NCBI GenBank assembly: GCA_017405525.1
Contig: JAFRAH010000010.1
Location: 1-64,000 of the forward strand
Direction: 5' to 3'
Source: Synergistaceae bacterium
GTDB taxonomy: Bacteria; Synergistota; Synergistia; Synergistales; Aminobacteriaceae
Length of the DNA stretch: 64,000 nt
This document shows positions 34,183 to 39,540 of the stretch, piece by piece (the stretch's first letter is position 1; each line of letters begins with the position of its first letter). The notes below the pieces were generated by a model that had not been told where the DNA came from, made no database searches, and worked only from the letters and a program-made list of their open reading frames with translations. A program made the translations under genes and the position numbers.

Positions 34183-34211
34183 ATTATACCCCATAGCACT
34201 AACCACGTGAA
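34183..34211 (-). promoter_or_regulatory. Candidate promoter for fhs-fchA-folD
   Basis: On the minus strand TTCACG (34211-34206), a 17-base spacer and consensus TATAAT (34188-34183) lie at the end of the antiporter gene, about 33 bases before the fhs ATG. It would let the folate genes be transcribed apart from the upstream GGDEF/antiporter pair. Confidence 0.5.
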
Positions 34212-35479
34212 AACCTTGCACGCTGGACATGTTCGGGTTTCTTAGCCTCAATCTCGCCTGCCGCAGTCAGTGCCATTCTCGTCATCATTGGCCCCACAAG
34301 CTCATACACCAAGACGCTGAAGAGTATTATGTTGCGTATCAGCCCTCCAATCTCGCCGCCCAATGCCTGAGCACTCACCACCATACCCAGCGCAACGCCA
34401 GCCTGCGGGAACAGCGTAACGCCCAGATACTTCCTGACATTGGGGGAACAGTTCATCATTGCCGAGCTGACGGATGCCCCTAAATATTTTCCCGCGCAAC
34501 GAACCAGAATATACACCATCCCCACAATCATAACTGAGGCATCACCCATCACTGAGAGTTCAAGCCTTGCACCTGAGAGCACGAAGAAGACGGCATATAG
34601 CGGTGCTGACCATCTCTGAGAACGTGCCATGATGTCAGCCGAATAGTCGCACATGTTGCAGAAAGCAGTTCCGAGCGTCATACAGACCAGCAATGACGAG
34701 AAGGCTACCCTAACGCCCCCTATATGGAACTGCCCGGAAGACAAGGCTATAGTCATGAGGACAAAGGAGATAGTCATAGAGAGCCTGTTAGAGTTAGAGA
34801 GGAAGAGTTTTTCGAGCATCGTCAGGACCCAGCCCATTACTGCCCCAAGAACCAGTGAGCTCACTATCTCGATTAGGGGGTTAATGGCGACCGATACGAT
34901 ATTGACCGCCCCGCCAATCATGGCCTGAGAAATTCCCATAGAGACCGCAAAAATCACCAGACCCGCCGCGTCATCGAGAGCGACAATCGGGAGGAGCAAG
35001 TCAGTAACCGGGCCCTTAGCCTTGAACTGCCGGACGACCATCAACGTAGCCGCTGGTGCAGTAGCTGAGGCAATCGCTCCGAGAACCACAGCCGCCGGAA
35101 GTGGCAGAACGTCCCAATAGCTCAGGAGGATTAATGCCCCGTCAACGAGGATTGCAGCCATCAAAGCCTGAAAGACCCCGATGAAGAGTGCTGAACGTCC
35201 CATTTCCTTTAGGCTTGCGGCACGGAACTCACTCCCAATGTCGAACGCTATGAACCCTAACGCAATATTCGAGAGTATTCCGACACCTGAGAGCTCTTCA
35301 GGTGAGGTGAAGCCAATCCCGAAACGTCCCAGTACATAGGGCCCAACGAGAACCCCGGCAATGAGGAACGACGTAACATCAGGAAACATTATGCCCTTCC
35401 TGCCTACGGTGTACTTGAAGGCTCGTGTCATGAGTAGCCCTGCGGAAAGTGCAAACGCTGTACGAAGCAACAATGTCAT
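34199..35479 (-). CDS. Monovalent cation/proton antiporter (CPA family)
   Basis: 426-residue membrane protein with 12-13 hydrophobic helices. Hallmarks of the CPA2/KefB-like Na+/H+ exchanger fold: GVLVGPYVLGRFG near residue 45, IALGFIAFDIGSEF near 75, and the core Asp pair in IVALDDAAGLVIF near 165. The ion exchanged is unknown; no regulatory RCK domain is attached. It starts three bases after the stop of the GGDEF-PIN gene, so the two are co-transcribed. Confidence 0.85.
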   Translation of the reverse strand: MTLLLRTAFALSAGLLMTRAFKYTVGRKGIMFPDVTSFLIAGVLVGPYVLGRFGIGFTSPEELSGVGILSNIALGFIAFDIGSEFRAASLKEMGRSALFIGVFQALMAAILVDGALILLSYWDVLPLPAAVVLGAIASATAPAATLMVVRQFKAKGPVTDLLLPIVALDDAAGLVIFAVSMGISQAMIGGAVNIVSVAINPLIEIVSSLVLGAVMGWVLTMLEKLFLSNSNRLSMTISFVLMTIALSSGQFHIGGVRVAFSSLLVCMTLGTAFCNMCDYSADIMARSQRWSAPLYAVFFVLSGARLELSVMGDASVMIVGMVYILVRCAGKYLGASVSSAMMNCSPNVRKYLGVTLFPQAGVALGMVVSAQALGGEIGGLIRNIILFSVLVYELVGPMMTRMALTAAGEIEAKKPEHVQRARFSRG

Positions 35480-35482
35480 GAA

Positions 35483-36952
35483 TTAATGACCTCGCTTGTG
35501 TTGAAGTAGTGGTTTTATGGCTCTGTAAATCTCTCCTGCCCTTGAACTGTCTTTATATGTTTTCAGGAGGGCAGTATTGATTTCAGTTTTTGTTCTGGAA
35601 CTTGTGATTATCCCGGCAATTTTCGTGGCATCTTCAGTTTCACCAGTGAGTTCGGCAATTTTCCCGGCCATGTCCTCAGTATCTTGGGTTGACTTAGTTC
35701 CTGAAACGTCCGCCAAAATCTCAACGGTGATATTTTTTCCCTTCCAGAATGAAATCAGGCTTGTGAACCCGTTATCTTTTGAGACGATGAAATATTTTGC
35801 CTCAGTCCCTGAATTTTCGGTGATTAGTTCTCCGAGATATGAAGAAAGCTGAAAGTCCAGTGCGTTTTTCTGGCCAACCTCGACGTGATGGTAGGTGATA
35901 TTAGCGCGGCTCTCCTTGAGGTGAAGGTTGAGCTCCGTAGAAATTCTGTCGGCATTACGGCTGTAGAATATGCAGACGTTGCAGGTGTCATCAAGCCTGT
36001 GAATGCCATTGAGCCCGGAACTCTTTACGTTCTCATAGTCGACGAGGTAATAGCTCCTGACTGCCTCGTTATCGTCCCTTGAGTTCTCCATTTCGGGGGT
36101 ATAGACCTTACAGCAGGCACGACCTGATTTTTTGGCCTCATACAACGCAATATCGCTTTCACGAATCAGGCGGTCAATAGTTTTTTCGTCGCCGTGAACT
36201 TTCTGTGCAATCCCTGCCGAAACACTAAGAGCCCTCATTGTCTTAGTCCCTGCGTAATACTCAAGGAGCGCGGCCATGAAGCCTTCAACCTTGCGTTCAA
36301 CGTCAAGAGCCTCGCGCTGTCCCAAAAGGACAATCATGAACTCATCACCGCCCATTCTTGCGCAGAAGCCGTCCGTGAAGTCCTGCTGCATCATCTCAGC
36401 GGTTGCGGCAAGTGCCCGGTCTCCTGCCTGATGACCGTATGTGTCGTTTACCTGCTTGAAGTGGTCGAGGTCGAAATAGATACAGGTAACGTTCCGTTCA
36501 GCCTGATTCTTCATGATGTATTCGTTGAGGTACCATCTTGTGGCCAGCCCGGTGAGGTAGTCCTGCCGGGCCATTTCGGTTATACGTTTCTGGTGCTCGA
36601 TTGCCTCCGTAGTGGTCTCAAGCTCTGATTTCAGGCGTTCGAGCAAATTTCCAGCAAGAAACCTGACCAGTGAAGGTGTAAGTGGCTCAGGCCAAAGGCC
36701 ATAGATTTTCTCCAGTGATTGTGCAGTGAGTAGTTCGGGGGATTTTGTGCAGAGTATATATTTTGCGCCGGGAGCCGGGATTTCCGGGAGGTTCTTCACG
36801 ATGAGGACATTTACCCCCCCGCCTGAAGGTACGTGAGAATTTCCGGGCTTGATTGTGCGCACGTTGACCTTGAGCCCTGAAGGGTGTTCCATGCCTGAGA
36901 GTATGGCGGCTAAATTCTTACTGGCTGAGAAAATATTTACTTCACCGTTCAT
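35483..36952 (-). CDS. GGDEF diguanylate cyclase fused to a PIN/NYN-like nuclease domain
   Basis: 489 residues in three parts. 1-130: divergent receiver-like region without a clear phospho-Asp, ending in a helical linker. 131-285: GGDEF domain with intact substrate site (YFDLDHFKQVNDTYGH at 159-174; GGDEF at 201-205); the RxxD inhibitory site is not visible. 301-415: PIN/NYN-like fold starting LVDYENVKSSGL, with conserved acidic positions Asp305, Glu307, Asp366 (NALDFQL) and Asp393 (VSKDNGF), as in standalone bacterial PIN-like RNases; 425-489: helical tail. Seen: all motifs. Known: GGDEF makes cyclic di-GMP; PIN/NYN domains are metal-dependent RNases. Inferred: dinucleotide signalling tied to RNA cleavage. 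First gene of a pair with the antiporter; no ribosome site precedes its ATG. Confidence 0.8.
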   Translation of the reverse strand: MNGEVNIFSASKNLAAILSGMEHPSGLKVNVRTIKPGNSHVPSGGGVNVLIVKNLPEIPAPGAKYILCTKSPELLTAQSLEKIYGLWPEPLTPSLVRFLAGNLLERLKSELETTTEAIEHQKRITEMARQDYLTGLATRWYLNEYIMKNQAERNVTCIYFDLDHFKQVNDTYGHQAGDRALAATAEMMQQDFTDGFCARMGGDEFMIVLLGQREALDVERKVEGFMAALLEYYAGTKTMRALSVSAGIAQKVHGDEKTIDRLIRESDIALYEAKKSGRACCKVYTPEMENSRDDNEAVRSYYLVDYENVKSSGLNGIHRLDDTCNVCIFYSRNADRISTELNLHLKESRANITYHHVEVGQKNALDFQLSSYLGELITENSGTEAKYFIVSKDNGFTSLISFWKGKNITVEILADVSGTKSTQDTEDMAGKIAELTGETEDATKIAGIITSSRTKTEINTALLKTYKDSSRAGEIYRAIKPLLQHKRGH

Positions 36953-36962
36953 GATGGGTGTA

Positions 36963-36990
36963 ATGATACGTCAAGGCTGTGAAAAATCAA
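36963..36990 (-). promoter_or_regulatory. Candidate promoter of the GGDEF-PIN gene
   Basis: Minus strand TTGATT (36990-36985), 16-base spacer and TATCAT (36968-36963). The -10 ends only 10 bases before the ATG, so the transcript would be almost leaderless, in keeping with the absence of a Shine-Dalgarno sequence. Confidence 0.4.
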
Positions 36991-36992
36991 AA

Positions 36993-37697
36993 TCACCGCC
37001 ACAACAAGAGCACGCTCATATAAGGCATCTCAGAGCTCATCACTGCGTCAAGTCCCTCATAGATGCGCTGACGTTGGGGGTCTCCTGCGAAATCAACCCT
37101 GATAATCCGTGAGAACTGGGATAATTCCGGGGGAAGCTCCTTGAGTGCTGAGGGCTTATAGATAGCGGCACAGTCGCAGGAATTGAGGGCATTGCGGATT
37201 TTATCGGGGCTTGAAGTTCCGGGGATGATGGTCATGATTTCGTCATCAGAGGCCAAGAACTGACGTGCGACACTTGCGGCGAGTGAATGAGCAGAAATTC
37301 CGGGGATGAACCGTGCCTCAACGGGTGAAATGACCTTCCTCAAAGCCTCAAGGAAATATTGACCTGTTGAGTAGAGTGTGGCATCACCAATCACAGGGAA
37401 GAAGATTTTACCGGCCTGTTCAAGTTTTGGCTTAAGTGCTCTGAGCTGAGATAGTATGATGCTGTCTCTCAGTGAGGTGTTTCGGGTCATGGGGAAGTGA
37501 AGAGGAGTGAGTATCTTTCCCGGAATGAGTGAGGCTGTGAGATTTTCTGCCAGTCCCGGAATTTGGGGGTCAGCGCGCGGAACTATGAGCATCCCGGAAT
37601 TTTTGGCGGCCTCAATGACGGAGGGGCTGACATGTTCAGGATTTCCCCAAGCTCCAAGACCGGCTATTACTGCTAGATACTGGGATAAATTTTTCAT
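36993..37697 (-). CDS. cobI: Precorrin-2 C20-methyltransferase-like tetrapyrrole methylase
   Basis: 234 residues of the SAM-dependent tetrapyrrole methylase superfamily. Glycine-rich N-terminal loop (AGLGAWGNPEHVSPSVIEAA), then FPMTRN, and the CobI/CbiL-like GDATLYSTGQYF near residue 125 followed by FIPGISAHSLAAS. This best fits the C20 methylase of cobalamin synthesis; the N-terminal loop is divergent. No other cobalamin gene is in the window, so pathway membership is inferred. A weak TATTAT lies just upstream; no ribosome site is obvious. Confidence 0.75.
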   Translation of the reverse strand: MKNLSQYLAVIAGLGAWGNPEHVSPSVIEAAKNSGMLIVPRADPQIPGLAENLTASLIPGKILTPLHFPMTRNTSLRDSIILSQLRALKPKLEQAGKIFFPVIGDATLYSTGQYFLEALRKVISPVEARFIPGISAHSLAASVARQFLASDDEIMTIIPGTSSPDKIRNALNSCDCAAIYKPSALKELPPELSQFSRIIRVDFAGDPQRQRIYEGLDAVMSSEMPYMSVLLLWR

Positions 37698-37799: not shown

Positions 37800-39041
37800 A
37801 TGTTAAAGACAATTCGGGTAATGTTAATCCCGAATAACAAGCAAAGGACGCGGTTATTCCGTTTTGCCGGGACAGCAAGATTTGCCTACAATTGGGCATT
37901 AGAGCAAGAACAGAAGAATTATGACGCGGGGGGAAAATTCCTGTCAGATTATGAACTTCGCAGGCTTTTTACACAGTTCAAGAATGAGCCAGATAATCAG
38001 TGGCTTTACACGATAAGCAACAATGTATGCAAGCAGGCAGTCAAAGATGCAGTAAACGCTTATCACAAGTTCTTCAACGGATTAGCCAAGCATCCAAGAT
38101 ACAAGAGCCGGAAGCATGACAAGCCAGCTTTTTATATTGATTCAGGAAAGATAAAGTTTACTGGGACACATGCAAAATTAGAAAGTATAGCCCTGAGCAA
38201 AAGGAAGCCCCGGCAATGCATAAACTGGGTCGGGCTTGCAGAACATGACCAAATCCCGACAGATGCGAAATATTATAATCCGCGGATTAGTTTTAATGGG
38301 CTGAATTGGTTTCTTACCGTCGGAATTGATATTGAAGCTCCTGAACCAATCCCCCCCATTAATGACGGCATAGGAATTGACTTAGGCATTAAGGACTTGG
38401 CGGTATGCAGTTCCGGCCATGTCTACAGGAATATTAACAAAACAGGTCGTGTGAGACGGCTGAAGAAGAAACGGCGCAGGTTACAGCGTAAAATCTCACG
38501 GAAATACGAGAAGAACAAGAAAGGAGAAAGTTACCAGAAGACACGTAACATTATAAGGAGTGAAAAGCAACTTTTACGATTAACCCACCGATTAACGAAC
38601 ATCAGGACTAACTACATTCATCATGCGACTTCTGAGATAGTGAAGCGAGAACCAAGTTTCATAGTCATGGAGGACTTGAATGTGTCAGGAATGATGAAGA
38701 ACAAGCATCTGGCAAAGGCCATACAGGAGCAGGAATTCGCGGAGTTCATCAGAATAATGCGGTATAAATGCGACTGGCACGGCATAAGATTTATCACAGC
38801 AGACAGATTTTATGCATCAAGCAAGCTATGTTCATTCTGCGGGCACAAGAAGAATAACCTGAAGCTGTCAGACAGGATATATACATGTAGGCACTGCGGG
38901 GCTGTAATAGACCGGGACAAGAACGCCAGCATAAACTTGTATCACTATGGGAGAATGAAAATTCATACCGATACGTTAATCGGGAAAAGCTACGCGCACT
39001 ACGTAGCAAAGCCTCTGGAGCGTTATTCAACCCGTAAGTAG
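37800..39041 (+). CDS. tnpB: TnpB RNA-guided nuclease (IS605 OrfB family)
   Basis: 413 residues. N-terminal helix-turn-helix/WED-like region (MLKTIRVMLIPNNKQ), then a RuvC nuclease with its three acidic residues in place: Asp194 (GIDLGIKD), Glu291 (VMEDLNVSGM) and Asp371 (VIDRDKNASINL). A zinc ribbon has Cys344, 347, 363 and 366 (CSFCG, CRHCG). The set is complete, so the protein may be active. TnpB proteins are known to cut DNA guided by an RNA made from the transposon right end. It lacks a TnpA partner. Codon use is richer in AAA/ATA than in neighbours. Confidence 0.93.
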   Translation: MLKTIRVMLIPNNKQRTRLFRFAGTARFAYNWALEQEQKNYDAGGKFLSDYELRRLFTQFKNEPDNQWLYTISNNVCKQAVKDAVNAYHKFFNGLAKHPRYKSRKHDKPAFYIDSGKIKFTGTHAKLESIALSKRKPRQCINWVGLAEHDQIPTDAKYYNPRISFNGLNWFLTVGIDIEAPEPIPPINDGIGIDLGIKDLAVCSSGHVYRNINKTGRVRRLKKKRRRLQRKISRKYEKNKKGESYQKTRNIIRSEKQLLRLTHRLTNIRTNYIHHATSEIVKREPSFIVMEDLNVSGMMKNKHLAKAIQEQEFAEFIRIMRYKCDWHGIRFITADRFYASSKLCSFCGHKKNNLKLSDRIYTCRHCGAVIDRDKNASINLYHYGRMKIHTDTLIGKSYAHYVAKPLERYSTRK

Positions 39042-39135: not shown

Positions 39136-39540
39136 ATGGCGTTATTGTTGGGATTTATTGGTGCAACGATATTTCTTTTCGGGCTCTACCAGTGGGCACA
39201 AGGCGGTGCTAATTTGTGGCGGATATTCAGCATTCGTCGGCACGAGAAAGATTTAGCGACCCGTGAGGAGAAGGCACAGGCTGAACGTGAAGTGAAACAG
39301 CTTGAGCAGGCAGCAGACAGGACAATATCAGCCAGTTTCAGGATTATAGCTGTTCTTGCGGTGCTGGTGTGGGTATTCTTGGGTGTAACGATGATTCTGG
39401 AGATGTTCGGGATAAACTGGATAAGTACGATTTCGACACATGCCCGAAATTACTGGTCAGCTCCCGGAATTGAGAGCCAGCAGAACACCCAGAGCCGTAA
39501 CGACATGCTCAGGAACATGGGCAACAACTTGAGGCGTTAA
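39136..39540 (+). CDS. Small two-helix membrane protein of unknown function
   Basis: 134 residues. Membrane segments at about 4-22 and 68-92 flank a charged, probably coiled-coil stretch (RRHEKDLATREEKAQAEREVKQLEQAA); the C-terminal 40 residues are polar. No family recognised. It ends two bases before the HAD gene, whose ribosome site lies inside it, so the two are translated together. The upstream side is the tnpB element. Confidence 0.7.
   Translation: MALLLGFIGATIFLFGLYQWAQGGANLWRIFSIRRHEKDLATREEKAQAEREVKQLEQAADRTISASFRIIAVLAVLVWVFLGVTMILEMFGINWISTISTHARNYWSAPGIESQQNTQSRNDMLRNMGNNLRR

Follow-up and report, generated by a model that had tools for sequence, protein, structure and literature searches.

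Related systems

Diguanylate cyclases usually consist of an input domain and the enzyme itself. The receiver-GGDEF proteins PleD, WspR and DgcR follow a common order of receiver-like N-terminus, helical stalk and GGDEF domain, and the same order is found in the protein described here, which is encoded in the window (the whole 64,000-nucleotide stretch of DNA that was analysed, from a Synergistaceae bacterium). Compared with these three proteins, however, it has neither a phospho-accepting Asp nor an I-site, and it carries a predicted nuclease domain at its C-terminus. A cyclase is already known to work with RNA processing in the Escherichia coli oxydegradosome of DgcO, PdeO and PNPase, in which the diguanylate cyclase is physically linked to an RNA-processing enzyme (PMC8846402). 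The oxydegradosome is made of separate proteins, contains an exoribonuclease/polymerase and is concerned with oxygen sensing, whereas the window protein is one polypeptide chain whose nuclease part has a predicted PIN/NYN fold. Type III CRISPR systems, in which a cyclase-type nucleotide synthase (Cas10) works with nucleotide-activated RNases, are similar in logic alone (PMC11346440); no CARF sensor or Cas10 was identified at the window locus, and its GGDEF domain has motifs of the cyclic di-GMP type.

For the nuclease half, the likeness to the NYN RNases (MARF1, VPA0982 and the CRISPR-associated NYN protein of Bacteroides fragilis) consists of a structural match, best for MARF1, and of the acidic active-site cluster. 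The B. fragilis protein, which has a similar acidic cluster, is a Mn2+-dependent single-stranded RNase (PMC11346440). The window protein differs from these enzymes in that its Pfam NYN match lies below the cut-off, while the NYN RNases have no reported GGDEF partner. The standalone PIN7 proteins of Bacillota have the same PIN7 domain followed by the same C-terminal helical domain, and are 37–49% identical to the window protein over about 190 aa in the aligned rows; their genes stand alone, whereas the PIN7 domain of the window is fused behind a diguanylate cyclase. Both domain families are already known. For the fusion of a GGDEF domain to a PIN or NYN nuclease, no description was found in open-licence full texts, which is weak evidence of absence, and no paper on PF18475 (PIN7) was found in these texts either.

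The fused gene and its domains

The open reading frame of 489 aa is intact, with an ATG at 36952 and a TAA at 35483-35485 on the minus strand. The features of the gene and of its two conserved neighbours are as follows.

35483..36952, minus strand: fused gene of 489 aa (pseudo-receiver, coiled coil, GGDEF, PIN7 and C-terminal helical domain)
36617..36952, minus strand: receiver-like N-terminal domain, residues 1-112, without the conserved phospho-Asp, alignable with the receivers of PleD, WspR and DgcR
36509..36616, minus strand: long helix in the predicted model, residues 113-148, likely a coiled-coil stalk leading into the GGDEF domain
36119..36568, minus strand: GGDEF diguanylate cyclase domain, residues 129-278, by Pfam match, without I-site
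36338-36352, minus strand: GGDEF motif, residues 201-205
35738..36046, minus strand: PIN7/NYN-like predicted nuclease domain, residues 303-405, with D305, E307, D366 and D393
35504..35701, minus strand: C-terminal four-helix domain, residues 418-483, common to the standalone PIN7 proteins of Bacillota
34199..35479, minus strand: Na+/H+ exchanger (PF00999), 3 bp downstream of the fused gene, conserved neighbour
36993..37697, minus strand: tetrapyrrole methylase family gene (PF00590), 40 bp upstream, conserved neighbour

An AlphaFold2 model of the protein was built from 35 related sequences. Its mean pLDDT of 88.5 and pTM of 0.50 indicate that the single domains are well predicted, while their mutual arrangement is uncertain. 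Residues 1-112 form an alpha/beta domain in the model, and residues 1 to about 287 align with the receiver and GGDEF domains of PleD, and likewise with WspR and DgcR, with a high rmsd that comes from the domain orientation. No match to PF00072 (Response_reg) was found by Pfam search up to an E-value of 10, and the fused proteins have K, R or N at the phospho-Asp site after beta-3, where a few relatives have D. We therefore use the term pseudo-receiver. An earlier note on this DNA, made from its letters, had called the N-terminus receiver-like without an obvious phospho-Asp; the model agrees with the first part, and the alignment bears out the second.

The GGDEF domain is matched by PF00990 at residues 129-278 (E-value 2.5e-31, 109.1 bits against a cut-off of 23.8), and the intact GGDEF motif that the same note had seen is found at residues 201-205. 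This motif, the DLD metal motif and ND..GH..GD are kept in 34/34 aligned orthologues, whether fused or without PIN7. The RxxD I-site, an optional feature, is missing before the GGDEF motif of the window protein, where the sequence reads DGFCARMGGDEF, again in agreement with the note. Judged from its motifs, the GGDEF half would be expected to synthesise cyclic di-GMP.

For the C-terminal half, PF18475 (PIN7) matches residues 303-405 with an E-value of 2.6e-26 and 92.7 bits, far over the cut-off of 34, while PF01936 (NYN) stays below threshold (20.8 against 24.2 bits). The objection, raised with the earlier note, that this region might match no PIN/NYN profile therefore fails. Asp305, Glu307, Asp366 and Asp393 stand where the note had placed its acidic cluster and are invariant across 43 aligned PIN7 domains from Synergistaceae and Bacillota. 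Among solved structures, the PIN model is matched best by the NYN domains of mouse and human MARF1 (Z 9.7 and 9.3, 3.3 Å, 111-112 residues). VPA0982 (Z 7.7) and the Bacillus subtilis RNase Rae1 (Z 7.3) rank lower, and the C-terminal domain weakly resembles the NAB2 N-terminal domain (Z 6.3), Z values under 8 being within what chance may give. The MARF1 ranking comes from a second aligner, Foldseek having returned nothing for the PIN model at an E-value below 0.001, and sequence searches gave no credible solved relative of the PIN part. In the model, the PIN7 domain has a predicted NYN-like fold, and we infer that it acts as a metal-dependent nuclease with RNA as its substrate. The PIN7 part shows no evident site for binding cyclic di-GMP.

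Locus context

The usual order in the genus is tetrapyrrole methylase, membrane protein, GGDEF(-PIN7) and Na+/H+ exchanger. The antiporter gene that the earlier note had reported beside the fused gene does start 3 bp downstream of it, and this order recurs in most relatives, the exchanger being replaced by other genes in a few fused ones (such as G003, G010 and G031). The window genome has no membrane protein gene between the methylase and GGDEF genes (36952-36993); in relatives, the product of this gene (e.g. L034:5073-5966) has no Pfam match. The suggestion of an almost leaderless mRNA is not supported: its sole basis is a promoter-like match of 9/12 at 36990-36963 (one of 10 such matches, with about 4 expected by chance), and the preceding gene on the same strand ends just 40 bp away. 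Most relatives have a further gene that overlaps or almost abuts the start of the GGDEF gene. Further upstream, a gene of the IS605 OrfB/TnpB type (PF07282, PF01385, PF12323) lies at 37800-39041, between the methylase gene and a divergent gene at 39136; it is missing from this junction in most of the relatives that have the junction.

Distribution within the genus

We surveyed 43 genomes of the uncultured Synergistaceae genus to which the window genome belongs, judging genome content by family searches; the relatives with named records are mostly rumen and gut MAGs. The fusion is found in 12/43 (G000, G002, G003, G004, G006, G010, G011, G023, G024, G029, G031 and G065), with 52-67% identity to the window protein where compared. 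In four others (G018, G032, G035 and G061) a PIN7 gene directly follows the GGDEF gene as a separate ORF, in G028 it lies about 1.5 kb beyond it, and G014 and G026 carry it on a different contig; a copy in G001 is truncated by a contig end. PIN7 was not found in the remaining genomes, about half of the 43, nearly all of which keep the GGDEF gene. In G002 (L032:1530-3011), a TAA breaks the fused gene inside PIN7, which is either a sequencing error or early decay.

The fused PIN domains form one clade in the PIN tree (support 99/99). The GGDEF tree sets G024 apart from the other fused proteins with weak support, and a single clade is not rejected (p-AU 0.25). Two independent fusions were considered and found less likely on these values; from the trees, a single fusion event appears to be the likelier history. 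On the GGDEF tree, the presence of PIN7 takes 8 or more changes, which indicates repeated gain or loss. Across the phylum, 45/188 Synergistota genomes have PIN7, and frames of at least 478 aa, long enough for the fusion, were seen only in this genus.

Between related fused proteins, dN/dS is 0.04-0.14 for the GGDEF part and 0.04-0.18 for the PIN7 part, the range of purifying selection, with many pairs near saturation at synonymous sites; in the closest fused pair, G010/G031, it is 0.04 for PIN7 and 0.14 for GGDEF. Such low values in both halves indicate that both are maintained. The architecture proposed in the earlier note, a GGDEF and a PIN/NYN-like domain in one protein, is confirmed by the Pfam matches and by the fusion in 12 species of the genus: one polypeptide combines a GGDEF domain with a predicted PIN/NYN-like nuclease, as a genuine, selected fusion.

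PIN7 genes outside the genus

Beyond the genus, PIN7 is a standalone gene of sporadic occurrence: 10/395 genomes of one sampled class and 16/391 of another have a match over the cut-off. About 119 such genes were examined; a scan of a genome collection, together with samples of classes and orders, supplied 93 of them, and other Synergistota the remaining 26. Among the approximately 119, five directly adjoin a GGDEF gene, all in Bacillota. The two genes are on the same strand, at most 30 bp apart or overlapping, in L134, L175, L176 and L202/L282, and adjoin divergently in L234; since L175 and L176 are from one order, the adjacency is seen in four lineages. For the first 93 genes, the mean GGDEF density predicts about 1 adjacency (p about 0.003-0.004), and the density of the GGDEF-rich genomes predicts about 2 (p about 0.06); when lineages are counted in place of loci, p is about 0.015-0.02. 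The 26 Synergistota genes show no GGDEF adjacency, and including them weakens the excess somewhat. The excess of GGDEF-PIN7 adjacency outside the genus is modest, and no more than suggestive of an association.

Individual loci show further arrangements. At L282:273-4305, in a genome that encodes 46 GGDEF domains, PIN7 stands directly ahead of three co-oriented GGDEF genes. A Veillonellaceae MAG (L191:2786-6630) has consecutive genes on one strand for a REC-GGDEF protein, a beta-CASP/RMMBL metallo-nuclease and PIN7. In the Lachnospiraceae loci L133, L142, L147, L150 and L154, PIN7 has a gene with a GGDEF domain nearby (in L147, one for PAS-GGDEF-EAL), and L137 encodes a 7TM hybrid histidine kinase and a BD-FAE-type esterase ahead of PIN7. 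Longer PIN7 proteins of 323-524 aa are encoded at L186:6004-7050, L190:6004-6975 and L236:265-1839, their C-terminal parts having no Pfam match. Overall, the immediate neighbours of PIN7 in Bacillota share no single common function; the commonest, alpha/beta hydrolases, come from a series of similar Lachnospiraceae loci. PIN7 also occurs in genomes in which no GGDEF was detected (G117, G851, G829, G689, G753 and G771).

A phage or plasmid origin of the PIN7 domain was considered and rejected on searches of viral contigs, phages and plasmids. Viral contigs gave no confirmed relative and phage records one weak match. Among plasmids, 16 records match PIN7, one of which, from Selenomonas ruminantium, spans nearly the whole PIN7 part; no plasmid match covers 80% of the length of the full window protein.

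Cyclic di-GMP signalling in the genome

The window genome encodes five GGDEF domains, and the fused protein alone has the canonical motif, the other four reading QGDEF, GEDHF, SDDNF and SDDEF. Of its two EAL domains, the catalytic motifs are intact in one and altered in the other. The altered one belongs to the second GGDEF-EAL protein (L093:746-2413), in which the changes DAFGSG and KGVE suggest that phosphodiesterase activity is lost. No PilZ domain was found in the 43 genomes of the genus. With the sole canonical GGDEF motif of its genome, the window protein is probably the main diguanylate cyclase of the species, and, in view of the lack of PilZ, the receptors are probably not the usual PilZ proteins.

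Proposed mechanism and alternative explanations

It is plausible that the fused protein is a signalling-controlled RNase, as the earlier note had proposed. Tentatively, at a probability a little short of even, we favour a receiver-type diguanylate cyclase that would carry an RNase as its output domain, the N-terminus controlling both. The pseudo-receiver would take an input other than phosphorylation of a conserved Asp, either a ligand or a partner protein. The coiled coil would pass this input on and set dimerisation, upon which the GGDEF domain would be activated and make cyclic di-GMP. The same change would position or free the tethered PIN7 domain, whose metal-binding acidic cluster would cut RNA, and a single input would in this way produce a diffusible signal as well as a local RNA cut. 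In favour of this reading are the intact catalytic residues and the purifying selection in both halves, the single clade of fused PIN domains, the recurrent neighbourhood of the separate genes and the precedent of DgcO/PdeO/PNPase. It is weakened chiefly by the many genomes of the genus that do without PIN7, and also by the lack of an I-site and of an evident cyclic di-GMP site on PIN7, by the uncertain domain arrangement and by the small size of the adjacency excess. The two halves may thus be coupled, and the coupling may include control of the nuclease by cyclic di-GMP. That cyclic di-GMP made locally would directly gate the PIN7 RNase, and that GGDEF and PIN7, fused or neighbouring in Synergistaceae and Bacillota, would form a general module by which a cyclase controls RNA cleavage with no PilZ or riboswitch receptor, we consider improbable.

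A serious rival, if a rather unlikely one, is tethering without control, in which a working cyclase and an RNase of one pathway or operon were joined for co-expression or co-localisation and the RNase is not regulated by the GGDEF domain. It stays serious because most PIN7 genes are standalone and about half of the genus has no PIN7. The halves are separate in relatives, mostly at the same locus, and standalone proteins of PIN7 and the C-terminal domain are common in Bacillota, which suggests that the nuclease half is complete by itself. Indeed, the genomes of the genus without PIN7 mostly have the GGDEF gene, and standalone PIN7 genes lie mostly near unrelated genes, so that neither half needs the other. 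Unregulated tethering fits less well with a fusion that is retained in one clade with purifying selection on both halves, and with a GGDEF-PIN7 adjacency that recurs in unrelated lineages.

Some small nucleases act on dinucleotides, and the tether would put PIN7 next to the product of the GGDEF domain. PIN7 could then be a nucleotidase of the signalling cycle, cutting cyclic di-GMP or its linear product pGpG beside the synthase, and the few EAL domains of the genome (two, one of them degenerate) would be in line with this. We regard it as very doubtful, given that about half of the species have no PIN7, mostly with the GGDEF gene retained, and that PIN7 is present in genomes where no GGDEF was found. 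The main function could also lie in the RNase, the GGDEF half being a sensor of GTP or cyclic di-GMP, or a scaffold, with negligible cyclase output. The degenerate state of the other GGDEF domains of the genome and the lack of a PilZ receptor in the genus agree with this reading, to which we assign a low probability, since all catalytic motifs are kept in 34/34 orthologues, including those without PIN7.

The earlier note had also thought of a phage response. A signal synthase joined to a nuclease follows the logic of defence, and NYN RNases are found in type III CRISPR loci (PMC11346440), so a defence or abortive-infection effector akin to the nucleotide-signal-activated nucleases was considered. 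It is highly improbable: the locus is chromosomal, conserved across the genus and housekeeping-like, with metabolic and transport genes, PADLOC gave no match for the fused protein or its two neighbours, and the searches of viral sequences gave no confirmed relative on viral contigs and a single weak phage match. A defence island was rejected on the locus context and the PADLOC result. Finally, an error of sequencing or assembly joining two genes has next to no probability and is excluded as the origin of the fusion by its occurrence in 12 separate genomes; of the doubt expressed in the earlier note, that the halves might be separate in close relatives and joined here by error, the separate neighbouring genes do exist, as an alternative natural state, and the error does not.

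Significance

An attached catalytic nuclease would be an unusual direct output for a diguanylate cyclase. If both halves are active and coupled, as in the shared control by the N-terminus that we favour, the protein would by itself connect cyclic di-GMP signalling to RNA turnover. The recurrence of PIN7 next to GGDEF genes in unrelated Bacillota, and in one case next to a gene for a beta-CASP nuclease, offers a first functional lead for the widespread PIN7 family.
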